This document shows, one piece after another, positions 5,678 through 32,355 of a stretch of 64,000 nt of DNA. Under the pieces are notes generated by a model, which saw only the letters and a list, made by a program, of their open reading frames with translations, was not told the DNA's origin and made no database searches. This DNA comes from Pseudomonadota bacterium. Lineage in GTDB: Bacteria > Desulfobacterota > Desulfobacteria > Desulfobacterales > Desulfolunaceae. The position numbers and the translations under genes are program-made. The stretch is from assembly GCA_018818835.1 (NCBI GenBank), contig JAHIRD010000127.1, forward strand, positions 1-64,000, read 5' to 3'. Within the stretch, counting starts at the first letter, position 1; each line of letters starts with the position of its first letter.

Positions 5678-5771
5678 ATGTGTGAGAGCCTTGTTATCCG
5701 TGTTTGAATAAACCTTCAGTGCCAAATGTGATGCATGCGAAAAATAAAGCGATGTCCATGGAAATGGCCTT

Positions 5772-5819
5772 TATGCCAAACACGATAACGCCGCATATGC
5801 GACTTTTTACGACGCCATC
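5772..5819 (-). repeat. Half copy of palindromic mobile repeat (family P)
   Basis: The sequence TGCCAAACACGATAACGCCG followed by a CATATG box and TTTTTACGACGCCATC is the reverse complement of the left half of the full elements at 15052-15205 and 49122-49267. Only one arm is present. It lies between paralogues 1 and 2 of the receptor phosphatases. Confidence 0.7.
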
Positions 5820-5864
5820 AAAGATTAACTGAATGATTGACTACGCCCAGAGCAGGAATAAACG

Positions 5865-8054: not shown

Positions 8055-8063
8055 AAAAAACAT

Positions 8064-11241: not shown

Positions 11242-12381
11242 TCACGGGTGGTGACGTATGATCAATGTGTCCACCAAGCGCTGAATGTGATCGTATTGAT
11301 GCAGAGCAGTCAGGCTGATCCGTAATATGGCCTGACCCAGTGGCACCGTGGGAAAGCGGGCAGGAAAGACCAAGATATCATCGTGATAAAGATTCCGGGC
11401 CAGTTCCATTGTTTTTTTCTCATCACCGATGTTTACAGAAAGAATGTGGGCATCTCCGTTGACGGTGAACCCAGCCCCCACAAGTTTCATTTTTAATGAA
11501 CGGGAGAGCCCTTGAAGGTACTCCCGTTTGTCGTCGGATGATTCAATGACCGAAAGGATATCTACTGCACTCTTTGCATGGGCTTCTGGAAGTGCCGTAC
11601 TGTAAATCAAGGGTGCTGAGAAATTTATAAGATAGTCCCTGAACAATTTTGGAAGAAGAACAATGGCCCCAAAAAGGCCAAAGGCTTTACCCAGTGTGCC
11701 CACGCCCACATCAGCCACTGTTTTACCCACCCCCCGTCCTCCCTTGCCACAGACCCCATAGGAATGGGCCTCATCCACCACGCAGAGAAAGCCGTATGTT
11801 TTCTTTAAAGCCGAAAGGGAGTCAATATCCGGGAAATCACCGTCCATGCTGAACAGGCCTTCTGTGATTACGGCCCGTGGCCCTTGTCCTCCGGATTTAA
11901 GCCGTTTTTCAAGATGGTTCATGGCGTTGTGTTTGTACCCTGAAAAGGCGGCTCCGCTCAAGGCAAGACCCTTTACACTGCTGGCATGGATGTGTTTGTC
12001 AAAATAGATATGGTCTCCTTTGCCAAACAAGGTAGAGATCAGAGCCAGATTGGCCTGGAACCCCGAGGGGAAAAACAGGGCGTCTTCAAAACCGAAATAC
12101 GCCGCGAATGTTTGCTCGGCCTCCCGCATCATCTGGAAATTCCCTGAAACCAGTCGTGACGATGAGGCCGAAGGCCCCATGGCCTCAAAGTTTTCAGCCA
12201 CCATTTTTCTGACTGCTGGATCAGATCCCAGGCCCAGGTAATCGTTGGATGCGAAATTGAGCCGGGTCCGGCCTTCCATATGAATAAAGGGTCCCTCTTT
12301 CCGGGCAATTTCCGGGGGATTCCGGTATAGGTCCGTGAGTTTTTGGTGCTTCAATCGTTGGGCATATCGTTTTTCAAACAT
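11242..12381 (-). CDS. bioF: 8-amino-7-oxononanoate synthase BioF
   Basis: A PLP-dependent decarboxylative condensation of pimeloyl thioester with L-alanine, the first committed biotin ring step. At 379 residues it is the usual length. Visible: NFASNDYLGLGSDP near residue 45, SRLVSGNFQMMREAE, FPSGFQANLALISTLFG, VVDEAHSYGVCGKGGRG and the PLP-lysine motif GTLGKAFGLFG near residue 233. It is the last gene of the bioB-led operon and overlaps the upstream hotdog gene by 31 bp, indicating translational coupling. BioF normally accepts pimeloyl-ACP or pimeloyl-CoA; the ACP in this operon is the likely donor. Confidence 0.95.
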   Translation of the reverse strand: MFEKRYAQRLKHQKLTDLYRNPPEIARKEGPFIHMEGRTRLNFASNDYLGLGSDPAVRKMVAENFEAMGPSASSSRLVSGNFQMMREAEQTFAAYFGFEDALFFPSGFQANLALISTLFGKGDHIYFDKHIHASSVKGLALSGAAFSGYKHNAMNHLEKRLKSGGQGPRAVITEGLFSMDGDFPDIDSLSALKKTYGFLCVVDEAHSYGVCGKGGRGVGKTVADVGVGTLGKAFGLFGAIVLLPKLFRDYLINFSAPLIYSTALPEAHAKSAVDILSVIESSDDKREYLQGLSRSLKMKLVGAGFTVNGDAHILSVNIGDEKKTMELARNLYHDDILVFPARFPTVPLGQAILRISLTALHQYDHIQRLVDTLIIRHHP

Positions 12382-12806
12382 GAGAACAGGTTCCGATAAT
12401 GGGATTCAAGGATATCTTTCCGGAAATGGTGGTCGTAATCACCCAGGGCAAATAAAAAACGCCCTTCAATCCGGGTTTCACCATCTTTTTCCGCAAAAAG
12501 GTCATAGGCATAGGCCTGTTTGCTTTGACTGACAAGGGTACCCCATGCCCGATAGAACCCAGGCTCAAGGCAGCTTTTTTGTGCTTTAACATGCTGGATT
12601 TTTAGAAGAAAGGCATGCTTGACCAGGCTTGTGAGATACCGGACATGGAGGGCTCCGGCCTGGGCCAGGATTTCAATGCCCGTATGGATCTGAGTGTCTT
12701 CTTTATCAATGGTTTTGCTGATACCTATTCGATTCGGCCCGAGAAAAAGGATGTGGTCAGCCATGACAAAACCCTGGCGGCCGGTGCGTATGATTAAGGT
12801 TTCCAT
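12351..12806 (-). CDS. ApeP-like hotdog 3-hydroxyacyl-ACP dehydratase
   Basis: A 151-residue hotdog-fold protein. The segment IHTGIEILAQAGALHVRY (Glu45) corresponds to the catalytic-Glu helix of ApeP/FabZ-type dehydratases, and His18 in VMADHILFLG is the likely partner. It overlaps the ketosynthase gene upstream by 13 bp and bioF downstream by 31 bp, so it is an integral part of the biotin operon. The proposed role is dehydration of the 3-hydroxyacyl-ACP intermediate while the pimeloyl chain is built. It could alternatively be a thioesterase-like hotdog; the Glu helix favours dehydratase. Confidence 0.7.
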   Translation of the reverse strand: METLIIRTGRQGFVMADHILFLGPNRIGISKTIDKEDTQIHTGIEILAQAGALHVRYLTSLVKHAFLLKIQHVKAQKSCLEPGFYRAWGTLVSQSKQAYAYDLFAEKDGETRIEGRFLFALGDYDHHFRKDILESHYRNLFSCLKNDMPND

Positions 12807-14008
12807 GATTGTATCACCAGGGCGCTGTTCTGGCCTCCAAATCCGAAATTTTCAAGAAGTATGGTCCGGGGATTCATGGATGTGGGTGCCTTGAGAAAAT
12901 GAAGTTCCGGGTTAAGGGGCTCCACCAGATTTCTCACGCCGGGAAAGAGACCCAATTCAAGGCAGCTCAGGCAGAGGGCCAGCTCCACAGCCCCACAGGC
13001 CGATGCCAGATGGCCAATCCATGATTTGAGGGCCGTGATTTTTGGGCTGTGACCCTTGAAAACCCGTTGGATCATACCGGCTTCCATCCGGTCATTGAGC
13101 ACGGTTCCCGTGCCGTGGGTGGAAATCAGGTCCACATCTCCAGGGTTGAGGCCCGCCTCGGAAAGGGCATGTTGCACAGCATGTTCTGCCCATGTTCCCT
13201 GGGGCTCCGGGGCTGTCATAGTGTATCCGTCCATGGCAGAGCCATACCCGCAGATTTCAGCCAGAATTCTCGCTCCCCGGGCTTTGGCATGGTCAAGGCT
13301 CTCTATAAGCACGGATGCTCCGCCTTCGCCGGCCACAAAACCCGTCCGGCAGACATCAAAGGGTGCGTATGTTTGCCTGGGGTCTTCTATTCCTTGCCAC
13401 AGGGCCTGGGCTTTTTTGTAAGCGAGGATCCCCCCGGGGGACAAGCGGGAATCTCCTCCCCCTGCAAATGCAAGATCCAGGTAGCCATCTTTGACTTTAC
13501 GGAAGGCTTCGCCCACAGCCATCATGGACGCGGCACAGGCCGAACCCACGCTCAGGTTTTCACCATGGATCCCGGCCAGCCGAGAAATGGCGGATGCCGC
13601 AGTATTGGGTAAGAATCTTAGCAGAAAGAGAGCTGGAAGAGGGTCTTGAACGATCTGTCCGTCCCGGATATCCGGGCATTCCCCACCCAGGTCCATGTTG
13701 GGCCCGCTGCCCACAAAAAGACCGGCCCTTTCGCATTGATCCGGCCTGAGTTTCGATGCATTAATCGCTTTAAGAGCCGCAGCCAGTGCAAACTCAACGC
13801 CTCTGTTCAGGTAGCGTGCATCCTTGAACCGTCCTGTATGGTCTTTGAGATTGAAATCATGGACCGGGCTGACTGCCGTTGTGGGGTCATACACAGGCCG
13901 CTCAAAGGTCACGCGATCCTTTAGGATGTTTTCAACGATGGCCTCAGGGTCAGAGCCCAGTGAAGAGAAAAGGCCCATGGATGTTATGACGACGCGGTTT
14001 TTCATCAT
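12794..14008 (-). CDS. Beta-ketoacyl-ACP synthase (FabF/KAS II type) of the biotin operon
   Basis: A 404-residue condensing enzyme with the full thiolase-fold signature: nucleophile Cys158 in SVGSACAASMMAVG, first His in ISTHGTGTVLNDRMEA and second His in LKSWIGHLASACGAVE, plus the C-terminal LENFGFGGQNSALVI loop. The Cys-His-His triad makes it a chain-elongating (malonyl-ACP using) synthase rather than a KAS III. Its place between ACP, dehydratase and BioF genes suggests that it elongates the pimelate precursor separately from bulk fatty acid synthesis. The gene is 27 bp downstream of the nitroreductase gene. Confidence 0.87.
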   Translation of the reverse strand: MMKNRVVITSMGLFSSLGSDPEAIVENILKDRVTFERPVYDPTTAVSPVHDFNLKDHTGRFKDARYLNRGVEFALAAALKAINASKLRPDQCERAGLFVGSGPNMDLGGECPDIRDGQIVQDPLPALFLLRFLPNTAASAISRLAGIHGENLSVGSACAASMMAVGEAFRKVKDGYLDLAFAGGGDSRLSPGGILAYKKAQALWQGIEDPRQTYAPFDVCRTGFVAGEGGASVLIESLDHAKARGARILAEICGYGSAMDGYTMTAPEPQGTWAEHAVQHALSEAGLNPGDVDLISTHGTGTVLNDRMEAGMIQRVFKGHSPKITALKSWIGHLASACGAVELALCLSCLELGLFPGVRNLVEPLNPELHFLKAPTSMNPRTILLENFGFGGQNSALVIQSWKP

Positions 14009-14035
14009 TTGTTTAAGCGCTGCCCGGGACAGTCG

Positions 14036-14662
14036 TCAGACCGTTTGGCAGATTTCCTCCGCAGTAATACGTTGAAGAGTCGAGGCCTTTTCATCGGCAA
14101 AACCTGCCGTGACAAAGCAGGTGATACGCAGGTCCGTTCCAAGGATATCCGATACATCACGGATATAAACAAGGGGTGCCGTGAGAATACAGGTGGCAAT
14201 ACCCAGTTCGGTCCCTTTCAGAATAAATGCTGAAAGGGACAGGCCCGTAGCCAAATCAAGATCCTTGTTTTTTTTTAAGGCATCCACGGTGAGCCCTGCA
14301 TCCTGGAGACGGTCCTGGAAGGACATTACATTTTTTGTGCCCAGGGCAAACAGATAAGGCGCAGAGAACATGAATTCGGAAAAACGATAATAGGCCCGGA
14401 TCAGATTTCGGATTTTTTTTGAGGCTCCCAAGGATTCGTACTGGGCAAGAAACCCCTCCTTTCCCAGAGCCATATTCTTTTTCAGGGCATCTTTGATGGA
14501 AACAGAGTCGATCAAAAGAAAGCGCACCGGTTCCGAATGGGAGGGTGAGGGCGCAAGACAGGCACTTCCCAGCATTTGGTTTACCAACAACCGATCAGGC
14601 GTTTCAGGTGTGTAACGCCGGATGCTTCTCCGCTCCCTTAAAATCTGATCAAAACTCATCAT
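14036..14662 (-). CDS. Nitroreductase-family flavoprotein in the biotin operon
   Basis: A 208-residue FMN-dependent nitroreductase-fold protein: ERRSIRRYTPETPDRLLVNQML at the N-terminus (the SRRSIR(R/K)F FMN-phosphate motif), LAPSPSHSEPVRFLLI, and a C-terminal GTELGIATCILTAP helix. Family members reduce nitro, quinone or enone groups using NAD(P)H. The operon has a ketosynthase, reductase and dehydratases but no FabI/FabK/FabV enoyl reductase, so this protein is a candidate for the enoyl-ACP reduction step. That role is an inference from position only; it might instead be an unrelated flavin enzyme. Confidence 0.8.
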   Translation of the reverse strand: MMSFDQILRERRSIRRYTPETPDRLLVNQMLGSACLAPSPSHSEPVRFLLIDSVSIKDALKKNMALGKEGFLAQYESLGASKKIRNLIRAYYRFSEFMFSAPYLFALGTKNVMSFQDRLQDAGLTVDALKKNKDLDLATGLSLSAFILKGTELGIATCILTAPLVYIRDVSDILGTDLRITCFVTAGFADEKASTLQRITAEEICQTV

Positions 14663-14671
14663 ACCCGGGGC

Positions 14672-15034
14672 CTAATTTTTCCAGTTGATATAACTGACAA
14701 GATCTTTGACCTTGATCACCGGTCCATGGGGAAGATCCTCAAGAATTTCCTTGATCCTCTCCCGGGTCAGATACGGATACTTTTCCATCATGTATTCACC
14801 CATATCTTTTGGACACTCCTTGGGTTTGTCCAGATAAATTCGCAAGGTTTTCAGAAAGATTTCATCATCATCCACCTCGATTTTAAATTCCGTATTCAGA
14901 ACAACCGCAAGCTCCAGAAGATCAATGGACTCGGCTTCCAGGTCTCTGATCAAATAGGTTTCCGGGCCGATATTGTTTGGATCGAAATCCAGTATATCAG
15001 CCAGGGATTCGATGACTTTTGATATAACATTCAT
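14672..15034 (-). CDS. Acyl carrier protein of the biotin operon
   Basis: A 120-residue ACP. The phosphopantetheine attachment site is Ser36 in RDLEAESIDLLELAVVLN, and the surrounding acidic helices fit the fold. It is about 40 residues longer than a housekeeping ACP: the C-terminal extension (MGEYMMEKYPYLTRERIKEIL...VKDLVSYINWKN) has a second Leu/Ile-rich helical unit. It lies 9 bp upstream of the nitroreductase gene and is preceded by a palindromic repeat that separates it from the SDR gene. It is probably the carrier of the nascent pimeloyl chain. Confidence 0.88.
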   Translation of the reverse strand: MNVISKVIESLADILDFDPNNIGPETYLIRDLEAESIDLLELAVVLNTEFKIEVDDDEIFLKTLRIYLDKPKECPKDMGEYMMEKYPYLTRERIKEILEDLPHGPVIKVKDLVSYINWKN

Positions 15035-15051
15035 GGCGTTTCCTTATACCT

Positions 15052-15205
15052 GATGGCGTCGTAAAAAAGTCCCATATGCGGCGTTATAGTGTTTGGCCGG
15101 ACGTTCGACATACGCTTAAAAGAATGCCTTCGCACCCGGCCAAACACTATGCCTTGCCTATGGACCTTTTTCCAAAGCCATCCGTCGGTTTTTTACGAGT
15201 TCATC
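15052..15205. repeat. Palindromic mobile repeat (family P), full copy inside the biotin operon
   Basis: A ~154-bp element starting GATGGCGTCGTAAAAAAGTC and ending TTTTTTACGAGTTCATC, so its ends are imperfect inverted repeats around TCGTAAAAA. The core carries inverted copies of GTGTTTGGCCGG and CCGGCCAAACAC. It shares both ends and core with the copy at 49122-49267. Transcription of the bio operon must pass through it, and the RNA could form a long hairpin between the SDR and ACP genes. Confidence 0.8.
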
Positions 15206-15236
15206 AAACATGACGTAAAAATTCAAATTAAAAAAT

Positions 15237-15992
15237 TTAAGCAAAAAAATGTTTTCCTGAACCGATCCCCCCATCCATAACAAGTTCTGTGGCATTGAAC
15301 CCCCTTGCCCCATCCGAAAGCAGAAAAACGATGGTTTCAGCCACATCACGGGAAGAGAGCCAGTGTCTGTTAGGTATTTGGCGGATAAGTCGGTCCTGGT
15401 TATTCTCAATAAAGGATTTACCCCGTCCACATGCAACATACCCCGGACGTAGGGATACGGAACTGATGCCAAAGGAGCCCAGTTCAAGGGCAATGTTTTT
15501 GTACAAGGCCTCGGCAGCCAGTTTGGAGGCCGCATAAAAGCCCTGTCCCTGATTGGGTCGTCCCGCTGCACCCGAAGACACAAAGACCAGGCGGCCGAAT
15601 TTTTTTTTGATCATGAGACGGGTTGTTTTTTTCAGAAAGGCAGCCCTGAACGCAATATTTTCTTCAAGAAAACAATCGGTTTTCCTGGTATCTGCCGAAG
15701 AAACAAGCGTTTCATAGTCTCCCTGGGCAAAGTCCACCAGATAGTCCGGTCCTTGGGGAAGGTCATCAAACACGGTAGAGAGGGTGTCGCGCCTTGAAAA
15801 ATCAAGACCGCAGGTCTGATAAAGGTCAATGGAAAAGGGAAGGGCCGCCATGATTTTTTCCCGGCCCTCCGGGCTTCGGAAACTTAAGATGGGTCGAAGA
15901 CCTGCTTCAATCAGGAGGCCTGCAAGCTCAATGGCCATATCGCAGCTCCCCCCAGCGATCAGAACCGTTTGCCCTGAAAAAGAAAGTCTCAT
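15237..15992 (-). CDS. Short-chain dehydrogenase/reductase (FabG-like) of the biotin operon
   Basis: A 251-residue classical SDR: a cofactor loop VLIAGGSCDMAIELA (a variant of TGxxxGIG), a catalytic Ser in RLVFVSSGAAGRPN, the YAASK catalytic Tyr/Lys at about 162-166, and a C-terminal ATELVMDGGIGSG as in FabG. The glycine loop is unusual (GGSCDMA), so cofactor preference is unclear. The start overlaps the end of the hotdog gene by 4 bp, indicating coupling. The expected role is 3-ketoacyl-ACP reduction in the dedicated pimeloyl pathway. Confidence 0.82.
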   Translation of the reverse strand: MRLSFSGQTVLIAGGSCDMAIELAGLLIEAGLRPILSFRSPEGREKIMAALPFSIDLYQTCGLDFSRRDTLSTVFDDLPQGPDYLVDFAQGDYETLVSSADTRKTDCFLEENIAFRAAFLKKTTRLMIKKKFGRLVFVSSGAAGRPNQGQGFYAASKLAAEALYKNIALELGSFGISSVSLRPGYVACGRGKSFIENNQDRLIRQIPNRHWLSSRDVAETIVFLLSDGARGFNATELVMDGGIGSGKHFFA

Positions 15993-16273
15993 AGGTTCAC
16001 CGTGCCCGTAACCAGGGTTTTTTCATGATCATACAATCGGCAGAGGATACGGCCCGTCTCCGGGACAAGGCTGAACCGGTATTTCCCCGGAGAAATAAAA
16101 TGCTTGAACCGGAACTGGCTAAGATCAAGCTTGGCTCCTCCGCTCGCATACGTTCCAATGGCCTGGACAAAGGCCTGGACAATGATGCTGCCCGGAACAA
16201 TGGGATGACCCGGGAAGTGATCCTTATAAATCCCGTCATGCGGATCAAAATAAAAATAACCGTCCTTAATCAC
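15989..16273 (-). CDS. FabZ-like hotdog protein lacking the catalytic glutamate
   Basis: A 94-residue protein, short for FabZ (~140-150). It keeps the signature YKDHFPGHPIVPGSIIVQAF. His19 aligns with the FabZ catalytic His, but the catalytic Glu found 14 residues later in FabZ is Gln33 here. The N-terminal ~35 residues of FabZ are also absent. It may act as a weak or partner-dependent dehydratase, perhaps paired with the ApeP-like hotdog protein of the same operon, or only bind acyl-ACP. It is 6 bp downstream of bioB and overlaps the SDR gene by 4 bp. Confidence 0.75.
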   Translation of the reverse strand: MIKDGYFYFDPHDGIYKDHFPGHPIVPGSIIVQAFVQAIGTYASGGAKLDLSQFRFKHFISPGKYRFSLVPETGRILCRLYDHEKTLVTGTVNL

Positions 16274-16279
16274 CTTGAT

Positions 16280-17278
16280 TTACCCCCGTGCCTCATCCAT
16301 AGTCACTGTATGGCCGCAGTCACGTACCATGTCCATATCCATGGCAATGTCACGGCCAGAGGTGGTCAGATAATTTCCAATCATCAGGCCATTGGCCCCG
16401 GCCTTGAACACCCAGGACTGGAAATCCTTTAATGTGATTTCCCGGCCTCCACAGACAGTGATGCTTTTTTCCGGATTGACCAGACGCATGATGGCAATGC
16501 ACAGCAAGGCATCCCGGGGCGAAAGCAGGGGCATGTCTTGGAGCCGGGTCCCTTTGACAGGGTTTAAAAAATTAACCGGAATGGTGTCCACGGGCAGGCC
16601 TTTGAGGGTAAAGGCCAACTCCACCCTCTGCTTCCAGGATTCACCCAGGCCGAAAATCCCGCCGCTGCATACGGCAAATCCGTTGTCCACCGCTGTATGG
16701 ATGGTGTCCAGGTCCTCGTCGTAACTGTGGGTGGTGCATATCTTGTCAAAATGACTTCGCGCGGTTTCCAGGTTATGATGATACCGGGTCATGCCGCTTG
16801 AAATCAGTTTTTTTGCGCCTGCCTGGGACAGCATTCCCAACGAACCGCAGATGGTGAGCCGTGTTTTTTTCACGATGATCTCAACAGCTTGGCAGATCCG
16901 ATCAATTTCCGCCTCGTTCAGGGAATGGCCGCTGGTCACGATGGAATAGTGTGTCGCCCCTTTTTTTTCCATGAAAAAGGCTTTTTCGGTCAGTTCATCC
17001 ACGGACAACAGGGGATAGGTCTCGATCCGGGTCTCGTGAAAAGATGACTGGGCACAGAACGCACAATTCTGGGAGCATTTCCCTGATTTTGCATTGGTGA
17101 TGGAGCAAAGAAACACCCGATTGTTTTTGTGGGCCCGCCTGATTTGGTCTGTCAGTGATAGAATATCAGACAAATGGAGGTCCTTATTTTCAACCAGGGC
17201 GCAGATCTCCTCTGCGGTCACGGAAAGGCCATTTTCTGGAATCATGTCCCTTAATACGTTGATTTGTTCATGAAGCAT
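16280..17278 (-). CDS. bioB: Biotin synthase BioB
   Basis: A radical SAM enzyme that inserts sulfur into dethiobiotin. The cluster motif CSQNCAFCAQSSF (CxxxCxxC) follows LCSITNAKSGK; further family marks are YSIVTSGHSLNEAEIDRI, CGSLGMLSQAGAKKL, YHHNLET and VNFLNPVKGTRL. It is the first gene of the operon. Three ATGs are possible (17302, 17293, 17278). The promoter predicted at 17317-17345 would start RNA near 17309, which leaves a usable leader only for the 17278 start; this choice is moderately certain. No strong ribosome site is visible for any of them. Confidence 0.95.
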   Translation of the reverse strand: MLHEQINVLRDMIPENGLSVTAEEICALVENKDLHLSDILSLTDQIRRAHKNNRVFLCSITNAKSGKCSQNCAFCAQSSFHETRIETYPLLSVDELTEKAFFMEKKGATHYSIVTSGHSLNEAEIDRICQAVEIIVKKTRLTICGSLGMLSQAGAKKLISSGMTRYHHNLETARSHFDKICTTHSYDEDLDTIHTAVDNGFAVCSGGIFGLGESWKQRVELAFTLKGLPVDTIPVNFLNPVKGTRLQDMPLLSPRDALLCIAIMRLVNPEKSITVCGGREITLKDFQSWVFKAGANGLMIGNYLTTSGRDIAMDMDMVRDCGHTVTMDEARG

Positions 17279-17316
17279 AGTGTCGTCTTTCATAGGTTGC
17301 ATGTTTAGAAAGGAGG

Positions 17317-20523: not shown

Positions 20524-23472
20524 TTACCCACAGAACTCGGCCCTTTCAACCAACTCGATCTGCATATTCCTGTTCAAGGTCACAAAATACGCATTGTAAC
20601 CGGAAATGCGGACCATCAGGTTTTGGTGGTTTTCAGGGTGACACATGGCATCACGGAGCATTTCCGACGACACCACATTGAGTTGCATCTGCATGCCGCC
20701 CATGTCGGTGAACGCTCTGGCGTAGGATGTGATGGTATCGACGGTCTGCCCATGGCTGTCGTGGGGGCCGGGAACGACTTTTACGTTAAAGGCGATGTTG
20801 TTGTTCAGGTATCTTGGATCAAGCCCTGCCACATCCCGCAAATTTGAAAGGATGTTCTTGGATGCATGGGGTTCGGGGGTGAGCCCGGGTGTGAACGCTT
20901 TTCCGGCAAGTCGGCCCGATGGAAGAGCTCCGGTCAGACTTCCGAAAGCCACATGGTTGGACATGGACCAGAACCCCGCTGTATATTGCCCCCCACGGTA
21001 GTTGATATGCTCTGCAAACATATCGTGGGCCAGCTTGGTTACCCGGTTGGCAATGGCCAGGGCCTCCGGGTCACCTGAACCGAACAGGGGGACCTTGTTT
21101 TTGATGGTGGCCAGAAGGGTCGCATGATTACTGAAATTGCTGTTCACAGCACGAAGAAGCTCAGGGAACGAGACCTTTTTGTCATCAAACACCAGTTTTT
21201 TGATGGCCATCATGGAGTCGGTTATATCTGCAAGGCCGATGCACGCGGTGCCCGATGAATTGTACATGGCACCACCTTGGGTGACGTCCTTTCCTTTTTT
21301 CTTTGGCCCTTCAATTAATGCCGAAATATACGGCGTGGGCCTAAGGGTCTGATGGGCCTCTCCCAGGTCGTTGTTGTACTGGCAGGTGAGGTCTGCGAGA
21401 TGGCGAAGCTGCACAGCAAACGCCGTGAAAAAGGATTCAAAATCTTTGAAATCACCGGTCGCAACATCGCCTGTCCGTGGTCCCAGATTCCAGCGCATCA
21501 AGGGATGATGCCCGTTGTTCAGTGCCATTTCAAGGGCTGCCACCATGTTGAACATCATGCAGTTGGTGTGGCCGATATGACGGCCCGAAAGGGTCGGCTC
21601 CACGCAGCCCGTGGCTGACCAGTCCCTTAAATGTTCCGCCGGGTAATTGAATTCAGCAAGGGAGGCCATCACCGCCTCGTCATTGTGAATGGACGGCGTG
21701 GACAGGGTGTTTACATTGACTTCACAGAGCCGTTTCAGATAGGTTTGACTGTTCTTTTCCCTGCTGAATCGAGCATTGACATTGGGGTCCCTGATGCTGA
21801 GCATTTCAGTGACCTTGAGAAAGATGTAGGTCATATCGTTTACCGCATCGTTGCCTTCCGGTGTCACGCCGCCCAAGGTGATGGCCTGGTCCGATGAACT
21901 CCCGCCGAACAAGTGGTTTCCGATGTCCGGGATCAAGGGAAGATGGTCTGTACAGCGCATGTACAGACAGCCGATCAGTTCCACGGCATGGCGGATGTAC
22001 AATTCCTTGTCTTTTTCATGGTCCAGTTTTTCCATATCCGATGTGAAATAGGGCTGGAGCCACTGGTCCAATCGCCCCAGTGAAAAGCCGGCGTTGGTGT
22101 TTTCCATATGAACCCCGATCCAGATAATCCACATGGCGTTTACCGCTTCAGCAAGTGTGGTGCAGGGGTTTTCAGGAACACGGCGGCAGATGTCTGCGAG
22201 GGTCAAAAGTTCGGCTTTTCGCTCTGGATTCCCTTCAAGGCCTGCCAGCCTTGCGGCCTCGTTTGAAAGATTTTTAGAATAAATATCAAGCCCTTCAAGG
22301 CAGATTGTCATGGCGAGAAGCAGGTCGCGTTTTTCTTTCATGGACCCAGGTGTTCCATCCCGTTCCCCTTGGATTTCAGAGATCAGGCCCTTTGTTCCAA
22401 GGGATAGAATTTTCGGATAGTGGAGGATGGTGTGGGACAGGGCCGTGGTTTTCCACAGAAAGCAGGCGGCGAACCGTTCGTCAAGTTTCTGGCCGGTGGG
22501 GTAATTCTTGTTATCCCTTACCCATTCCCGGAAATTTCGTTTCAGCCAGAAAGGGAAAATCCGGTTGTGAAGCGCCTCAACCGTTTCAGGTTCCACCACA
22601 TAAGGATTCAAGGGGCGGTAGGGCGCGGTCAAGAGTTCCCCCCAGATCATGGTTCCATGGGCATCGGGGTAGAGAACCACCCCGATTTCTTTGGTGGTAG
22701 TGGTTCCTGCAATTAAATCCTCGGCCCGGATCAGGGGTTTCTTGTTTTCCAGGAGATATTTGAAAGCCCGGGCCTGGCGGAGTTCGGGTACCTGGTGATC
22801 TCCGTTTTTGTCCGTTTCAAAGCCGGTTTCTTTGAACCAGCGCGTCAGAAGTTCGGGCCGTTCGTGGCAGAGGGCGGGCTTTGTTTTCAGGTGGGTGCCA
22901 AGGAAGTCTTTCAACCTTGGGAAGTCCTCAAGGCCCCATTCTGACAAATAAGGGTCTTTGAGGAAAAGGACGCCCGGATCAATGGCTTCCGCTTTAAGCT
23001 GTGGGATCTTCCGTGTGTCGATGCTTGTTTTGGTGGCTTTTGCCTGATCGTAATCACGGTTTTCAAGGCGTGTTTCTTTTTTTAGTTTGGCGATTTGAAT
23101 CGGTTTCAGCAGAAGGGACAGGTAAAAATTGATCATCTGGATGTATCCAAGATTCCCTATGGTGACAATTCTGTTTTCCATCAGGGCGAGCATCAGCTTG
23201 TTGGGTGGTTCGGTGGCTGCCTCTTTCAATGCCTGTTCGTCCTTAAATATCAGCATGGCATCGGGTGTTCCAGGTAGGGTTCCGGAAACCCTCACCCGGC
23301 CCTCTTTAAAAATCAATGACTGTTTCACATGTCCGTTTTCAGTTTTGATGCCCATGGTGAAGTTCATCCATCCGTCTTCGGATTTCAGATACCTGTTTAA
23401 TGATTTGCGCCAGTTGAAATTCATGGCAAAAAATTGTAAAAAAAGATGCGTCAATGCGTTGCTGATCGTCAT
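20524..23472 (-). CDS. Glycyl radical enzyme (PFL-like) with N-terminal SCP2-like domain
   Basis: 982 residues, about 150 longer than most of the family. Residues ~15-125 (GWMNFTMGIKTENG..., SLIFKEGRVRV, MLIFKDEQALKE, NRIVTIGNLGYIQMINFYLSLLL) resemble an SCP2 sterol/lipid carrier domain. The rest is a glycyl radical enzyme: thiyl-radical Cys623 in WSATGCVEPTLSG, with the Glu two residues on that is typical of eliminases/dehydratases, and the radical Gly958 in VRISGYNAYFVTLNRNM near the C-terminus. A GGAGG ribosome site supports the 23472 start. No activating radical-SAM enzyme is encoded nearby, so activation must come from elsewhere. Substrate unknown. Confidence 0.88.
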   Translation of the reverse strand: MTISNALTHLFLQFFAMNFNWRKSLNRYLKSEDGWMNFTMGIKTENGHVKQSLIFKEGRVRVSGTLPGTPDAMLIFKDEQALKEAATEPPNKLMLALMENRIVTIGNLGYIQMINFYLSLLLKPIQIAKLKKETRLENRDYDQAKATKTSIDTRKIPQLKAEAIDPGVLFLKDPYLSEWGLEDFPRLKDFLGTHLKTKPALCHERPELLTRWFKETGFETDKNGDHQVPELRQARAFKYLLENKKPLIRAEDLIAGTTTTKEIGVVLYPDAHGTMIWGELLTAPYRPLNPYVVEPETVEALHNRIFPFWLKRNFREWVRDNKNYPTGQKLDERFAACFLWKTTALSHTILHYPKILSLGTKGLISEIQGERDGTPGSMKEKRDLLLAMTICLEGLDIYSKNLSNEAARLAGLEGNPERKAELLTLADICRRVPENPCTTLAEAVNAMWIIWIGVHMENTNAGFSLGRLDQWLQPYFTSDMEKLDHEKDKELYIRHAVELIGCLYMRCTDHLPLIPDIGNHLFGGSSSDQAITLGGVTPEGNDAVNDMTYIFLKVTEMLSIRDPNVNARFSREKNSQTYLKRLCEVNVNTLSTPSIHNDEAVMASLAEFNYPAEHLRDWSATGCVEPTLSGRHIGHTNCMMFNMVAALEMALNNGHHPLMRWNLGPRTGDVATGDFKDFESFFTAFAVQLRHLADLTCQYNNDLGEAHQTLRPTPYISALIEGPKKKGKDVTQGGAMYNSSGTACIGLADITDSMMAIKKLVFDDKKVSFPELLRAVNSNFSNHATLLATIKNKVPLFGSGDPEALAIANRVTKLAHDMFAEHINYRGGQYTAGFWSMSNHVAFGSLTGALPSGRLAGKAFTPGLTPEPHASKNILSNLRDVAGLDPRYLNNNIAFNVKVVPGPHDSHGQTVDTITSYARAFTDMGGMQMQLNVVSSEMLRDAMCHPENHQNLMVRISGYNAYFVTLNRNMQIELVERAEFCG

Positions 23473-23560: not shown

Positions 23561-24232
23561 TCAAAACACCACATCCCCCCTATCAATACGCTGCTTCAAG
23601 TCCACAACCTGCCCGATCAAATCCATGGCCCGTTTTTCCACAAACCCGTCCACATCATCCAGGACCTCATGAAACAATCGGCTGTTGTATAAGGTCACCA
23701 GCCCGTGAAGATCGGACCAGAACCGAACGACCTGATAAAGCACGAACCGGTCTTTGCTCTCGCCCTTGCCCGGTATATACGACCCAATGGGTTCGATGAA
23801 CAGAGCAAGGCACTTCATGGCGTTCTCTTTTTCCTCCTGGGCCACCGGTTCGATGTCCGTGCCCACATAGTCCAGGTATTTGGGCGTATGCAGATTGAAC
23901 ATGATGTCGTAATAACTTGGGAACGTTTTACCGAACTCCACATAAGCCCGGATCATAACCTTGAACCTACCTTCCATATCGTCATGGCCTGCAGACCGCT
24001 TGGTCAGGAGATTGTAAAGTTTTTCAAAACCCCGCATCCTGATCTTCAGGTTGAGTTCATCTTTGTTTGTGTAATAGTTGTAGATGGTTGTGGCGGTGAC
24101 TCCCAGACGTGAAGCGATTTTTCGTACACTGAGGTTGTTGAACCCTTCTTCAATGATGATGTCTAAGGCTGCATCAAGGATCTTTTCTCTGGAGTGTTCA
24201 ATTTCTTCCGCCGTCATGGGCGCTTTGGGCAT
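23561..24232 (-). CDS. TetR/AcrR-family transcriptional regulator
   Basis: 223 residues. The N-terminal helix-turn-helix is clear: ILDAALDIIIEEGFNNLSVRKIASRLGVTATTIYNYYTNKDEL (residues ~18-60). The ligand-binding half is alpha-helical and not assignable to a ligand. It is the first gene of a tetR-GRE-SDR run and has an AAAGGAGAT ribosome site. A 31-bp palindrome overlaps its promoter, so autoregulation, and probably regulation of the glycyl radical enzyme, is expected. Confidence 0.92.
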   Translation of the reverse strand: MPKAPMTAEEIEHSREKILDAALDIIIEEGFNNLSVRKIASRLGVTATTIYNYYTNKDELNLKIRMRGFEKLYNLLTKRSAGHDDMEGRFKVMIRAYVEFGKTFPSYYDIMFNLHTPKYLDYVGTDIEPVAQEEKENAMKCLALFIEPIGSYIPGKGESKDRFVLYQVVRFWSDLHGLVTLYNSRLFHEVLDDVDGFVEKRAMDLIGQVVDLKQRIDRGDVVF

Positions 24233-27112: not shown

Positions 27113-27913
27113 ATGGAAACAAATTTTGTACTGCCCGGTTTTACAGAAATGATGTCCCAGATCAACACCTTCCAGAAAGAGAATGTGGACCGTATGATGG
27201 CGGCCATGAATGAAGGCCTTGGCGGAAAAAATCCCATGAACATCTTCTCTTCGGAAAAGATGGCCGATTATTCCATGACCGGAGGTTTTTCGGATTTCTT
27301 TGATATCATGCAGAAAACAACCCGTGGCATGCTAGATATTTCCCGGATTTTAATGCCTGCGTTGTCCGGTGACGGAAAGAATCCCATGGGTATGTTTATG
27401 GAAAATCTGCCTGAAATCCCGGCCCAGATCATCAAAAAACTTCTGGAAATTCCACCTGTGGGCATCACCCGGCCCTACCAGGAAAAAATCAACCAGGCTC
27501 TGGATAAACTGGGCATGTACAACACCGCAGCCATGGAGTTTTTGTACTGCACATGTATACCACTGGAGGAAGCCACCCGAATGACCTTGACGGAAATCAT
27601 GAAAAAATCCGATTCGGTGAAATCCATGGATGATGCCCAGAAGATCTATGAAAAATGGTTGAAAATTCTTGAGGAGGAATATCAGGCCCTGTTCAAGACA
27701 GACCGGTACAAACATGTTCTGGCCAAAATAATGAACGCCATGGGCGAATATCGAGCTGCATCACGGGAACTTATTCTTGATATTATGCATTTGGCGGGTC
27801 TTCCCTTTGGTCGTGAGGTGGATGAATTGTGTAAGGACGTTTTCACCCTCAAGAAAAAGATTAAAGAACTTGAAGCCACATTGAAGAGAATGGAAAAAAG
27901 CACGGTACATTGA
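27113..27913 (+). CDS. phaE: PHA synthase subunit PhaE (class III)
   Basis: 266 residues. The middle segment EIPPVGITRPYQEKINQALDKLGMYNTAAMEFL matches the conserved PhaE region that contacts PhaC, and the C-terminal ~30 residues form a Lys/Glu coiled coil (LKKKIKELEATLKRMEK). PhaE has no catalytic residues and is the obligatory partner of class III PhaC. An AGGTG ribosome site precedes the ATG. The phaC gene follows after 32 bp. Identification rests on the motif plus the neighbour; distant phasin-like proteins are the main alternative. Confidence 0.8.
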   Translation: METNFVLPGFTEMMSQINTFQKENVDRMMAAMNEGLGGKNPMNIFSSEKMADYSMTGGFSDFFDIMQKTTRGMLDISRILMPALSGDGKNPMGMFMENLPEIPAQIIKKLLEIPPVGITRPYQEKINQALDKLGMYNTAAMEFLYCTCIPLEEATRMTLTEIMKKSDSVKSMDDAQKIYEKWLKILEEEYQALFKTDRYKHVLAKIMNAMGEYRAASRELILDIMHLAGLPFGREVDELCKDVFTLKKKIKELEATLKRMEKSTVH

Positions 27914-27945
27914 TGGTACCTTAAAAATAAAGAAAGGAGAAACTC

Positions 27946-29139
27946 ATGCTTCCCAATGAACACCCGCTCAACAAATTGTTTTCAGAATCAATGAGCAGTA
28001 CGAAAAAGGCTCTGGGGTTTTCCTTGGACTCCCTGCAGACCATGCTGGGTTCTCTGGATACAAAAATCGCATCCACCCCATCTGAAACGGTTTATACGGA
28101 AGACAGGATTAAACTCAAACACTATGTTTCGGAAAATAAAGAAAAAAAAGGAACAAAAGCGCCTCTTTTGATCGTTTATGCCCTGATCAACCGGGAGACC
28201 ATGCTGGATATCCAGCCTGAACGCAGCGTTATCCGGAGTTTTTTAAAGGAAGGCATGGATGTGTATATTCTTGAATGGGGTTATCCCAGCTGGAAGGATC
28301 GTTTTTTAACCATCGATGATCATGTGTCCGGTTACATGAACAATGTGGTGGATTATATTCTGGAAAGCCGTCAACTTCAATCGTTGAATCTTATGGGCAT
28401 CTGCATGGGCGGGACTTTTTCGCTCATGTACGCATCCTTGTACCCGGATAAGGTCAGGAATCTGATCACCACCGTGACACCGTCGAGCTTTGATACACAA
28501 GACGGCCTTCTTCATGTGTGGATGAATGAAATCAACGCTGACTCAGTGACAGATGGCTTTGGGAACATCCCCGGTGACTTGATGAATTTCGGTTTTCTGC
28601 TTATGAATCCGCCCCGACTCATGGTGGACAAGTACAAAAATCTTTTTGAAAATCTTGATGACAAGGCCTTTGTTGAAAATTTTATTCGCATGGAAAAATG
28701 GATTTTTGACAGCCCGGATTTGCCAGGGGAAACCTTCCGTCAGTTTATCACGGATTGTTACCAGAAGAATTTGTTCATCCAGAGCAAGATGGACATCGGC
28801 GGGAAGCGTATTGATCTGTCCAATGTGACCATGCCCCTTTTGAATATTTACGCCAAATATGACCATCTGGTTCCCCCAGCGGCTGCAAACAAGATTACAG
28901 CTGCTGTGGGCTCAACGGATGTTCAGGATATCTGCCTGGATACGGGCCATATCGGGATTTATGTCAGCTCCAAATGCCAGGGTGCATTTGCTCCGGCCAT
29001 CGCATCCTGGCTGAAACAAAGGGATCCTTCAGGAAAACCCGTGTTAAAAGAGGTGAAGAAATCTCCAAAAACAGGAAGAAAACATGAGGGAAAACGGCAG
29101 GAACACCCTGGCAGAGCCAGGGAAATGAAAACAGCATAA
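27946..29139 (+). CDS. phaC: PHA synthase PhaC, class III
   Basis: 397 residues; polymerises (R)-3-hydroxyacyl-CoA into PHA at the granule surface. The lipase-like box with nucleophile Cys is MGICMGGTFSLMYA; the catalytic Asp is in NIYAKYDHLVPPAAA and the His in DTGHIGIYVSSK. Size and partner gene phaE fit class III. The last ~40 residues are a Lys/Arg-rich tail (KKSPKTGRKHEGKR) not usual for the class. AAAGGAG ribosome site. Operon with phaE upstream and phaJ downstream. Confidence 0.93.
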   Translation: MLPNEHPLNKLFSESMSSTKKALGFSLDSLQTMLGSLDTKIASTPSETVYTEDRIKLKHYVSENKEKKGTKAPLLIVYALINRETMLDIQPERSVIRSFLKEGMDVYILEWGYPSWKDRFLTIDDHVSGYMNNVVDYILESRQLQSLNLMGICMGGTFSLMYASLYPDKVRNLITTVTPSSFDTQDGLLHVWMNEINADSVTDGFGNIPGDLMNFGFLLMNPPRLMVDKYKNLFENLDDKAFVENFIRMEKWIFDSPDLPGETFRQFITDCYQKNLFIQSKMDIGGKRIDLSNVTMPLLNIYAKYDHLVPPAAANKITAAVGSTDVQDICLDTGHIGIYVSSKCQGAFAPAIASWLKQRDPSGKPVLKEVKKSPKTGRKHEGKRQEHPGRAREMKTA

Positions 29140-29156
29140 GGTGTGTGAGGCAGGCT

Positions 29157-29624
29157 ATGAATACATTATATGATTTTAAGGTCGGAGATAAAGAGAGCTA
29201 TACCATGACCATGGTTGATGCGGATGTTGTTCTTTATGCATGCATGACCGGTGATTTCAATCCCATACATATCGATGACGCCTATGCGGAAAAAGGACCT
29301 TATGGACAGCGAGTCGTCCACGATATGCTGGTGGCGGGTCTTATTTCCACGGTTTTGGGGACAAAGATGCCCGGACCTGGCAGCAGCTGTATCCAAAATA
29401 CCCTTGAATTCCTGGCACCTGTATACATTGGTGACACCGTAACAGCATCGGTGCAAGTCATCTCGCGCGATATGGGACAAAACCAGATGACCCTTTCCAC
29501 CCAGTGCGTCAAAGATAACGGAACCGTGGTGATCAAGGGCCATGCCCTGATGCGTTTTTTGGAACATGGTGTTCGTTTAAACTCAACCATGAAAAAAATT
29601 TATAAAGCGGTGGAAAATGCATGA
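29157..29624 (+). CDS. phaJ: MaoC-family (R)-enoyl-CoA hydratase, PhaJ-like
   Basis: 155 residues. The hot-dog hydratase motif ACMTGDFNPIHIDDAYAEKGPYGQRVVHDMLVAGLIS carries the catalytic Asp and His of (R)-specific enoyl-CoA hydratases, which turn beta-oxidation enoyl-CoA into (R)-3-hydroxyacyl-CoA for PHA synthesis. ATG 29157 with an AGGCAGG ribosome site is preferred over a GTG 12 bp upstream. It lies 17 bp after phaC and overlaps the second synthase gene by 8 bp, so it feeds both synthases. Confidence 0.9.
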   Translation: MNTLYDFKVGDKESYTMTMVDADVVLYACMTGDFNPIHIDDAYAEKGPYGQRVVHDMLVAGLISTVLGTKMPGPGSSCIQNTLEFLAPVYIGDTVTASVQVISRDMGQNQMTLSTQCVKDNGTVVIKGHALMRFLEHGVRLNSTMKKIYKAVENA

Positions 29625-31323
29625 GTTTAGCCGAAAAATAAAGGGCCTTGACAGTGTTCTTCATGCCTATCAAGGTCGTTTTTTCATGAACATGTCCCCC
29701 ACGGCCATTTTTCTGGCTTATGCGGACTGGGCCTGTCATTTTATAAATTCACCGGAAAAACAGGTTGAAACACTGGACTCCCTGATCAATGGGCTTGTGA
29801 AACTGAGTCGTGACATATACGCCGGTCAGGAAACCAAGGGGCAAAATGGAACAGACCCCAGGTTCAGTTCATATGGCTGGCAGCGTTTCCCATTTTCAGT
29901 GACGTACAAAACATATCTTGCAGCCGAATATTTTTTGAACCACATCATGTCCAATGTGAACGGTGTCACCCCCCATCACGAAGAAATGGTCTGTTTTATC
30001 ACACGGCAGATGCTCCAGGCCATGGCCCCGTCAAACGTTATCATGACCAACCCGGATATTCTCGAGTTGACCCTGGGCACACGGGGGCAGAACCTTGTCC
30101 AGGGAAGCATGAATTTCATCGATGATTGCAGCCGGTTGGCTCAAGGAAAGAAACCCGCAGGCACCGAAACATTTCAACCCGGAGTCAACGTGGCGGTAAC
30201 ACCCGGAACCGTTGTGTTTAAAAACAGGCTCATTGAGTTGATCCGCTATGCCCCCTCAACCGATATTGTTTACGCAGAACCGGTTCTTATTGTGCCTGCG
30301 TGGATTATGAAGTATTATATTCTAGACTTATCTGAGCACAATTCTCTGGTCCGTTTTCTGGTGGATCAAGGCCATACCGTTTTTATGATTTCATGGAAAA
30401 ATCCCGGTGCCGAGGAAAGGGATCTCGGCATGGTGGATTACCTCAAACTGGGCGTGATCGAAGCTGTCAACGCCGTGTCTGCCATGATTCCGGGTCAACA
30501 GATCCACAGCGTGGGATATTGTCTGGGCGGCACACTTCTGGCCATTGCCGTGGCTTATCTTGAAGGCCGGGGCGATGCCTGCATGAAAACCATGACCCTT
30601 CTTGCAGCCCAGACAGACTTCACCGATGCCGGTGAACTGACTCTTTTTATCGATGACAGCCAGGTGGCCTGGCTGGAGGATCTGATGAACAGTCAGAACT
30701 ATCTGAAAACCGATCAAATGGCCGGTGCGTTTCGCCTGCTCCGGGCCAATGAACTGATCTGGGCCGATATCATCAACACATACCTGCGGGGTGAGCGTAC
30801 GCCCGTCAGTGACCTTATGGCCTGGAACGCCGATGCCACCCGGATGCCATATACCATGCACAGCGAGTATCTTCGCTCGCTTTTTTTACAAAACGATCTG
30901 TTCGAAGGACGTTACCGGGTGGAGGGTGTTCCCGTTGCCTTAAGCAATATTCATGTGCCTGTGTTTCTCGTAGCCACCCGCAAAGACCATGTGGCCCCCT
31001 GGCTTTCGGTGTACAAATTTTATCTGCCCTCGGATGCCGCAAGCGTGACCTTTGTTCTGACCAGTGGTGGCCATAATGCGGGGATCATAAGTGAACCGGG
31101 GCACCCAGGTCGCAGTTATCAGATCGCCTGTCGCAAGGAAGGGGAAACCTATATGGACCCGAAAACATTTGAGGAAACAACCCCAGTCAATAAGGGGTCC
31201 TGGTGGATTCCCTGGCAGATGTGGCTGGCAGAACATTCAGGCGCAAAAATTCTGCCGCCGGGTTATCAGACAGATCCCCAAAAAATGATCCCGGCACCCG
31301 GAGAGTATGTGCTTGAAAAGTAA
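29617..31323 (+). CDS. phaC: Second PHA synthase PhaC, class I type
   Basis: 568 residues, the length of class I/II synthases. An N-terminal domain (KQVETLDSLINGLVKLSRDIY..., DPRFSSYGWQRFPF) precedes the alpha/beta core with lipase-like box HSVGYCLGGTLLAIAVAYLEG, Asp in LVATRKDHVAPWLSVYKF and His in TSGGHNAGIISEPGHPG. The C-terminal GSWWIPWQMWLAEHSG is typical of long PhaCs. It starts inside phaJ. Two synthases of different class in one operon is unusual; they may differ in monomer chain length. Confidence 0.93.
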   Translation: MHEFSRKIKGLDSVLHAYQGRFFMNMSPTAIFLAYADWACHFINSPEKQVETLDSLINGLVKLSRDIYAGQETKGQNGTDPRFSSYGWQRFPFSVTYKTYLAAEYFLNHIMSNVNGVTPHHEEMVCFITRQMLQAMAPSNVIMTNPDILELTLGTRGQNLVQGSMNFIDDCSRLAQGKKPAGTETFQPGVNVAVTPGTVVFKNRLIELIRYAPSTDIVYAEPVLIVPAWIMKYYILDLSEHNSLVRFLVDQGHTVFMISWKNPGAEERDLGMVDYLKLGVIEAVNAVSAMIPGQQIHSVGYCLGGTLLAIAVAYLEGRGDACMKTMTLLAAQTDFTDAGELTLFIDDSQVAWLEDLMNSQNYLKTDQMAGAFRLLRANELIWADIINTYLRGERTPVSDLMAWNADATRMPYTMHSEYLRSLFLQNDLFEGRYRVEGVPVALSNIHVPVFLVATRKDHVAPWLSVYKFYLPSDAASVTFVLTSGGHNAGIISEPGHPGRSYQIACRKEGETYMDPKTFEETTPVNKGSWWIPWQMWLAEHSGAKILPPGYQTDPQKMIPAPGEYVLEK

Positions 31324-31359
31324 AATGAAACGGTGTTTTTAAATCATAAAGGAGAGGCC

Positions 31360-32322
31360 ATGGAAAACAAAAAGAAAACCATTCTGGTCACCATTGATCA
31401 TTCCCGTCAATCCATTGATGCTGCCACCTACATCAGCGCCATGGTTGACCCCAGGGAAAACATCGTCACTCTTTTTCATGTGGAAAGTGATCTTTTCGAT
31501 ATTTTTTTTGACAGCGATGACTACCCGTCCCTAAACCTTGGCGAAACATCTCATTTTTCAGACTGGATGAATGTCCAGAGGCACAGTATTGACGAAAATC
31601 TGGAAATGGCGGAAAAAATTTTTCTTTCAAAAGATTTCCCCAAAGAAAACATTCGGATACTTAAACAACCCCTGACCAAAGGGATCACCAGGGATATTCT
31701 GGTGGAATCCCAGAAAAACTACGATCTGCTTGTGATCGGCAAATCCGGTTCCAACTGGATCGCCGATGGCCTGACCGGAACCGTCACTGAAAAGCTCTTG
31801 TCCCGAACCTTCCATATACCCCTGGTCATTATTGCAGGCACGCCTGATACCCATAAGGTTCTGCTGGGGTATGACGGCTCGAATGGCGCAGACAAAGCCG
31901 TTGCAACCTCTGCCAAATTGATCCGTAGTGATATGTCCGAGGTCCAGCTTTGTCATGTGATTCGGTCCTTTAACATGGCACTGGCCCAGAACACCCCGGG
32001 CTATACGTCCTTTTACAATACCTATCTGCCTGAGCTGGAGGAGGCCTTGATCAAGATCCGGCGTGAAAAGATGGAACCCCTTCTCAACAAGGCATGTAAC
32101 GTTTTTGTCCGCCATGGATTTGTACCATCAACGGTGCGCTGGTCCTTGATTAACAGGACAGCCAGCCGTTCCCAGGCCCTATTGGATATGGCCAAAACCC
32201 AGGAATGTGGAAGCCTTGTCCTCGGGCGTCGCGGGAATTCGGCGGTGGAGGAATTTTTCATGGGCAGGGTTGGGAAAAAAGTCGTTCAAAAAGCAGATTC
32301 CATTGCCGTCTGGATCATATAA
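31360..32322 (+). CDS. Tandem universal stress protein
   Basis: 320 residues with two Usp domains. Domain 1 (~1-155) begins KKKTILVTIDHSRQSIDAATY and ends in the nucleotide loop LLVIGKSGSNWIADGLTGTVTEKLLSR; domain 2 (~165-320) begins HKVLLGYDGSNGADKAVATSA and ends SLVLGRRGNSAVEEFFMGRVGKKVVQKA. The second loop has the G-x2-G-x9-G(S/T)-like ATP-binding form. ATG 31360 has an AGGAGAG site. It lies between the PHA synthase and the acyl-CoA synthetase, so it may link granule metabolism to stress or energy state. Confidence 0.88.
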   Translation: MENKKKTILVTIDHSRQSIDAATYISAMVDPRENIVTLFHVESDLFDIFFDSDDYPSLNLGETSHFSDWMNVQRHSIDENLEMAEKIFLSKDFPKENIRILKQPLTKGITRDILVESQKNYDLLVIGKSGSNWIADGLTGTVTEKLLSRTFHIPLVIIAGTPDTHKVLLGYDGSNGADKAVATSAKLIRSDMSEVQLCHVIRSFNMALAQNTPGYTSFYNTYLPELEEALIKIRREKMEPLLNKACNVFVRHGFVPSTVRWSLINRTASRSQALLDMAKTQECGSLVLGRRGNSAVEEFFMGRVGKKVVQKADSIAVWII

Positions 32323-32355
32323 GATTCGGGAACACGGACAGAGAAAGGAGGGCGT

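Follow-up and report, generated by a model that had tools for sequence, protein, structure and literature searches.

Among glycyl radical enzymes (GREs), the characterised members that match the protein considered here either convert small polar or aromatic compounds or join hydrocarbons to fumarate. The eliminases among GREs are described in PMC7077986 as carrying a CxE motif. The present analysis concerns a gene in a 64,000-nucleotide stretch of Pseudomonadota DNA (assembly GCA_018818835.1, contig JAHIRD010000127.1, positions 1 to 64,000; Desulfolunaceae of the Desulfobacterota in GTDB), the whole of which is called the window below. The gene encodes a GRE whose N-terminus resembles sterol carrier protein 2 (SCP2). 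As judged from its sequence, the protein is an eliminase-class GRE with a new domain partner, and it lies outside every equivalog tested. No description of the GRE-SCP2 architecture was found in the titles and abstract openings of the literature searched, with subscription literature largely outside the scope of the search; within these limits the statement of the initial annotation that no enzyme of this architecture has been characterised holds, and no known GRE subfamily with the same extension came to light. A paper on benzene activation is not about SCP2-GREs.

The open reading frame extends from an ATG at 23472 to a stop at 20524 with no stop inside, and the plus strand of the same interval contains stops in that frame. 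Pfam detects the PFL-like (E 2.1e-169) and Gly_radical (E 1.7e-20) domains. The active-site Cys623 lies in GCVEP (residues 622–626) and the radical-bearing Gly958 in RISGY (residues 955–959), as had been read from the sequence initially. The Cys loop, the C-terminal Gly loop and the PFL-like fold place the protein in the GRE superfamily, and the CxE motif together with an eliminase-type fold places it among the eliminases. A PFL-like search of the whole genome gave two genes, of which that in the window is the intact one.

The AlphaFold2 model of the full-length protein (mean pLDDT 88.3, pTM 0.90) superimposes on glycerol dehydratase 1r8w with Z 45.7 and 1.9 Å over 779 residues. This match is tied within Z 1 with propanediol dehydratases and the uncharacterised GRE 2f3o of A. 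fulgidus, and choline TMA-lyase CutC is next. In the profile search CutC, glycerol dehydratase and propanediol dehydratase came out nearest among solved structures. The GRE-type glycerol and 1,2-propanediol dehydratases (1r8w, 5i2a, 9rco) share with the window protein the whole catalytic fold, the CxE motif and His347, but the identity is only 27–29% and the window protein alone has the SCP2 extension. CutC shares the eliminase fold (Z 44.5) and the CxE motif, and its Thr502 is aligned with Thr636; it differs in having Asp in place of His347, and the match includes no SCP2 extension. The fold of trans-4-hydroxyproline dehydratase HypD (Z 43.7) and its CxE motif are shared as well. Thirteen NCBIfam families were matched by the window protein, none at its cut-off. 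The best of them is the broad PFL2/glycerol dehydratase subfamily (472.9 of 678.2 bits), while the CutC and HypD models give 361.5 and 392.4 bits against equivalog cut-offs of 1050 and 1100. Assignments to PFL proper, CutC or HypD were rejected on these scores.

Cys623, Glu625 and His347 are aligned with Cys433, Glu435 and His164 of glycerol dehydratase, which have catalytic roles there. In the alignment of relatives, labelled “fused” or “split” according to whether SCP2 is part of the GRE or a separate gene, Cys623 and Glu625 are kept in 96/96 fused-labelled rows, His347 in 95/96 and Gly958 in 94/96 (the other two being gaps); all four are kept in 8/8 split-labelled rows. The former set includes one unrelated GRE (L127_12), and the latter an unrelated GRE (L113_4) and an actually fused one (L113_5), as seen from extension lengths and the tree. 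The positions that hold glycerol in glycerol dehydratase are different: His281/Ser282 correspond to Ala461/Gly462, Tyr339 to Asp528, Asp447 to Asn637 and Tyr640 to Trp835, so the polar substrate contacts His281, Ser282, Tyr339 and Asp447 of glycerol dehydratase are absent. Position 528 is Asp in 89 of the 96 fused-labelled rows and position 840 is His in all of them. No source for the glycerol dehydratase residue roles was found in the literature search or in PMC7077986. According to that paper, Glu436 of the CxE motif and His160, a putative counterpart of His347, are essential in HypD. Because the catalytic residues are conserved and the glycerol-contact positions are changed, the sequences indicate that SCP2-GREs have kept the elimination machinery and have a substrate pocket of their own.

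The N-terminal extension was initially estimated at ~125 residues. The extension is confirmed but is longer, as ~157 residues precede the GRE fold, namely the SCP2 domain (~1–124) and a helical linker. In the AlphaFold2 model of residues 1–153 (mean pLDDT 82.9) the N-terminus has the SCP2 fold. The best Foldseek match of this model is UbiJ-SCP2 6h6p (E 8.8e-6, probability 1.00), followed by archaeal and animal SCP2 proteins and the C-terminal domain of alkylsulfatases. In VIA-align 2 the model matches 4axh with Z 14.0 (2.1 Å, 104 residues) and the SCP2L domain of human MFE-2 (1ikt) with Z 12.9 (2.5 Å, 111 residues), and the top three rows are the C-terminal part (residues ~546–651) of one sec-alkylsulfatase. 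UbiJ, MFE-2 SCP2L and the sec-alkylsulfatase C-terminal domain thus share their fold with window residues ~1–124, although the identity of the SCP2 and alkylsulfatase matches to the window N-terminus is 8–23% and no GRE fusion occurs among the listed matches. Of 22 N-termini of homologues, 14 have a Pfam SCP2 match (best E 3.8e-4), the runner-up family being found in two.

Some of the sequence searches speak against this assignment. The window sequence itself scores weakly (E 0.034, 14.9 bits for residues 1–195; E 0.023, 15.5 bits for residues 1–153) and does not reach the PF02036 gathering score of 21.3; SCP2 is absent at E 0.1 when the full-length protein is scanned with Pfam; eight of the 22 homologous N-termini are not matched; and the SCP2 chains that the N-terminal profile retrieves from PDB sequences have E-values no better than 0.087, so that the question would have stayed undecided on sequence evidence. 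A chance match was nevertheless rejected, because the Pfam matches of the 14 homologues and the fold agree. The comparison of a structure model of the N-terminus with SCP2, set beforehand as the point on which the initial annotation could fall, has thus come out in its favour.

SCP2-GREs form a family which, according to the sequences found, spans several phyla and is not a one-off. The N-terminal stretch was searched in 96 genomes, including that of the window, and was matched in 19 of them at 29 places: 23 long GRE frames matched across the extension (the window copy and a truncated copy on contig C205 among them), five short stand-alone frames and one place matching the start of the GRE part only. 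Genome G004, a single contig, contains five copies, four of them fused and one split. Among relatives from the genome collection, the best 80 of 349 were kept; all their matches start at query residue 22 or earlier, which means that they carry the extension. By their record titles these 80 belong to Desulfobacterota (Desulfobacterales, Syntrophaceae, Smithella), Myxococcota, Spirochaetota, Bacillota, Chloroflexota, Actinomycetota and SAR324, several of the Bacillota being from sheep or goat gut; most are metagenome-assembled genomes (MAGs), in which misbinned contigs are possible.

All five short stand-alone SCP2-like matches lie immediately downstream of a GRE without the extension (loci L019, L020, L026, L027 and L031/L054). 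Pfam SCP2 was below cut-off in the two stand-alone genes scanned (E 0.0064 and 0.0093), one of which is matched slightly better by a domain of unknown function. The activase gene directly follows the stand-alone SCP2 gene in L137 and L138; no activase is next to the GRE in three of the six split-type loci (L054, L139, L140). The sixth split-type GRE (L141) is separated from the activase by a gene of 153 aa in the position of the SCP2 gene of split loci, but Pfam finds no SCP2 in it. A DUF6765 protein is encoded upstream of the split GRE-SCP2-activase genes in L138 (4221–5297, Pfam), and a gene with a similar-looking start in L137 (11548–12666). In locus L113 (4685–10500) a GRE that has the SCP2 extension and another that lacks it are encoded divergently, and a gene of the activase cluster adjoins each of them. 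With the corrected sets (96 fused sequences including the window, six split), the split-type GREs form a group (support 96) separate from the fused ones (support 95); the tree was made by a quick method with midpoint root and has two very long branches, and the grouping of L138 and the remaining five split rows could stem from a long-branch effect. Since SCP2 stays beside the GRE even when the genes are separate, it probably belongs to the work of the enzyme.

An activase gene beside the GRE was taken as the norm in the initial annotation. This holds for most relatives, with the window as an exception. Activases of a single class were detected by tblastn, on either strand, in 80 of 103 relative loci (duplicate records included; for the alignment set four duplicates were removed, 109 to 105 proteins); in nine of these 80 the distance to the GRE exceeds 500 bases and one or two genes intervene. 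Several of the 23 loci without it are short contigs. The activases tested are radical SAM proteins with ferredoxin-type clusters (Pfam). In the window the 163-base gap between the GRE and the following short-chain dehydrogenase/reductase (SDR) gene holds an activase start, MMTNETIKKPLILEIKGNSLDD (20476–20411, minus strand), and a search of this gap revealed no further activase sequence. Eighteen residues of this stub are 83% identical to the activase start of L035 (E 1.6e-6, 400-base target), and four other activases match it with E 1.2e-5 to 6.2e-5. The sequence thus indicates that the local activase gene has been deleted to a stub.

A search for an activase elsewhere in the genome, proposed in the initial annotation, found an intact homologue. 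Contig C178 (L136, 8739–10318) contains a TetR gene and a radical SAM activase of 306 aa, followed by a GRE stub that comprises the last 20 residues (90% identical, E 1.2e-10, 460-base target). On contig C205 (L051, 7463–10024) a TetR gene accompanies a GRE that is truncated to 614 aa and lacks both the Cys loop and the Gly loop. The two are decayed sister loci. At E 1e-10 the genome has no match of this activase class other than that on C178, and activation of the window GRE by it in trans would be the simplest reading. As the genome is in 334 contigs, the deletions could also reflect assembly error. The reciprocal loss offers a natural test of GRE activation by an activase left from another operon.

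From the sequences and models we infer eliminase activity, a hydrophobic substrate, a carbonyl product and activation in trans, and from the N-terminal model lipid binding by the SCP2 domain. The protein may be a GRE-type radical eliminase, related to glycerol dehydratase, propanediol dehydratase and choline lyase, to which its own SCP2 domain hands a hydrophobic substrate, a proposal that we consider evenly balanced between right and wrong. The replaced polar contacts, purifying selection on the GRE part (dN/dS ~0.1) and a dN of the window copy that is not raised count in its favour. The radical-SAM activase would put the radical on Gly958, from which it would move to Cys623; Glu625 and His347 would assist hydrogen removal and the 1,2-elimination by which a head group resembling a vicinal diol, amino-alcohol or glycerol ether loses water or a different leaving group. 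The substrate would be delivered by the SCP2 domain, and the product, an aldehyde or ketone, would be processed by the SDRs of the operon or, in other taxa, by aldehyde ferredoxin oxidoreductase (AFOR) or aldo/keto reductase. Cleavage or dehydration of a hydrophobic or lipid-derived substrate had been suggested initially; the CxE motif, the conserved His347 and the nearest folds speak for chemistry of the eliminase type, whereas a hydrophobic or lipid substrate is plausible in that the GRE retains SCP2 in both fused and split forms. If true, the combination of an eliminase GRE with a lipid carrier would extend radical elimination to lipids and could account for part of the lipid turnover that takes place anaerobically in sediments, digesters and the guts of ruminants.

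A carbonyl product fits the neighbouring genes without being proved by them, since SDR, AFOR and aldo/keto reductase handle carbonyls. Neighbours were counted by gene cluster over 104 sources, window included, with Pfam run on one or two members for the rarer families. Certain points count against a hydrophobic substrate and an aldehyde product: Asp528 and the invariant His840 could equally mean a polar substrate, SCP2 folds can act as scaffolds, and the aldehyde inference is modest, as AFOR is present in only 12 of the 104 sources and SDRs are common. A wider reading is tentative and held with less confidence than the proposal for the single enzyme: SCP2-GREs would be a widespread class performing radical elimination on lipids, in which SCP2 lifts an alkyl- or isoprenoid-bearing polyol to the eliminase site, and in the organism of the window a GRE and an activase from different operons would pair in trans. 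The polyol may be a long-chain 1,2-diol, an alkylglycerol, a sphingoid base or a hopane- or sterol-type polyol. Were this so, anaerobes in sediments and ruminant guts would open lipid head groups without oxygen. The family is directly testable, being broad and conserved, with compact operons and with both fused and split forms.

It is also conceivable, though rather unlikely in our view, that the SCP2 domain has a structural or docking function, comparable to that which a small subunit may have in other GREs, and that the substrate is a small, soluble diol, amino-alcohol or similar compound. The closest characterised catalytic relatives do use small polar substrates, UbiJ, the top Foldseek match, is an SCP2 protein with an accessory role in making ubiquinone, and the SCP2 gene of split loci occupies a possible small-subunit gene place; on the other hand, the positions contacting small diols are not retained, and the sec-alkylsulfatase that heads the VIA-align 2 results is an enzyme acting on alkyl chains. 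Purifying selection on the SCP2 part fits a substrate carrier and a scaffold alike. We regard it as unlikely that the window copy is becoming a pseudogene, no longer switched on after the loss of its operon activase. The activase stub, the truncated C205 GRE and the 20-residue C178 remnant would agree with such decay, but the window GRE has an undamaged frame and every catalytic residue, and an intact homologous activase exists on C178. In addition, the terminal branch of the window GRE (0.19) is like those of its nearest relatives (0.18–0.20), and dN is not raised (0.128 between the window and L056, equal to L056–L058); with dS near or above 1 the dN/dS ratios are rough, and a recent loss would stay invisible.

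Quite improbable is a thioester-bound acyl chain as substrate, which would make the enzyme a radical dehydratase or decarboxylase of hydroxyacyl-CoA. SCP2 proteins are known acyl-CoA binders, and an AMP-ligase family is found in 12/104 sources (Pfam on one member). These ligases are mostly not next to the GRE, for which reason they were rejected as operon members; moreover, they are common in such genomes, and the active sites of known GREs are buried and small. Least probable by far is a hydrocarbon-activating fumarate adder of the benzyl- or alkylsuccinate synthase type. The relatives in Desulfobacterota and Smithella, groups which include hydrocarbon degraders, are in line with it, but the CxE motif is that of eliminases, the profile scores of MasD (286.6 bits) and TutD (251.2 bits) are far below that of glycerol dehydratase (519.4 bits), and the fold Z-scores are 38.2 and 36.7 versus 45.7. 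The positions of the features discussed are given in Table 1.

Table 1. Features of the SCP2-GRE locus in window coordinates.
Feature	Position	Strand	Basis
SCP2-GRE gene, 982 aa, intact	20524..23472	minus	ORF translation, Pfam
SCP2 domain, residues ~1–124	23101..23472	minus	homologue Pfam, AlphaFold2 model, Foldseek, VIA-align 2
Helical linker, residues ~125–157	23002..23100	minus	secondary structure of models; GRE fold alignment starts at 157/158
GRE catalytic part, residues ~158–982	20527..23001	minus	Pfam, fold comparison
Cys loop Cys623-Val624-Glu625, CxE motif of eliminase GREs	21598..21606	minus	sequence, alignment
His347, aligned with glycerol dehydratase His164	22432..22434	minus	alignment
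Gly958, radical-bearing	20599..20601	minus	sequence, Pfam
Activase-gene 5' stub, ~22 codons	20411..20476	minus	sequence match to activase starts
Fused oxidoreductase, epimerase/3beta-HSD-like + classical SDR, 623 aa	18489..20360	minus	Pfam
TetR-type regulator upstream of GRE	23561..24232	minus	Pfam

Across the 104 sources the TetR gene family is present in 50 and the SDR family in 32, the SDRs tested being of epimerase/3beta-HSD-like and classical types (Pfam). The 623-aa neighbour has a layout like that of two-domain fatty acyl-CoA reductases; NCBIfam and further comparison gave general SDR matches only. Of the 12 AFOR occurrences, seven belong to a single set of related loci and another is found at a locus edge, ~7.4 kb from the GRE. 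AFOR directly follows the GRE in L115 and L116 (Pfam on the L115 gene) and follows a ferredoxin gene in L087; in L071 it is ~400 bases further on the same strand, and in the seven related loci L072–L080 it is divergent. The ferredoxin gene cluster is present in 8/104 sources, and an aldo/keto reductase in L125 (Pfam) and L127 (same gene cluster). In a Smithella MAG (L106, 5484–6854) a gene of the sodium/bile-acid-symporter family is just upstream of the activase and SCP2-GRE. In L045, radical-SAM/SPASM and DUF362 proteins encoded in the same direction (7052–8287 and 11409–12821, minus strand) flank the SCP2-GRE.

Elsewhere in the window, the minus strand at 11242–17302 encodes a BioB-like radical SAM protein, a class I/II aminotransferase, a ketoacyl synthase, an acyl carrier protein (ACP), a FabA-like protein, an SDR and a nitroreductase, a candidate for a biotin-like or other acyl-ACP assembly route as far as can be judged from sequence. 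On the plus strand, polyhydroxyalkanoate (PHA) synthase genes (PHA_synth_III_E, PhaC_N) and after them a gene for an acyl-CoA-ligase-like/GNAT fusion are located at 27113–35037, and tandem 7TMR-DISM receptors with SpoIIE phosphatase domains at 3497–10277 (Pfam on genes 1 and 3 of three genes of similar size).

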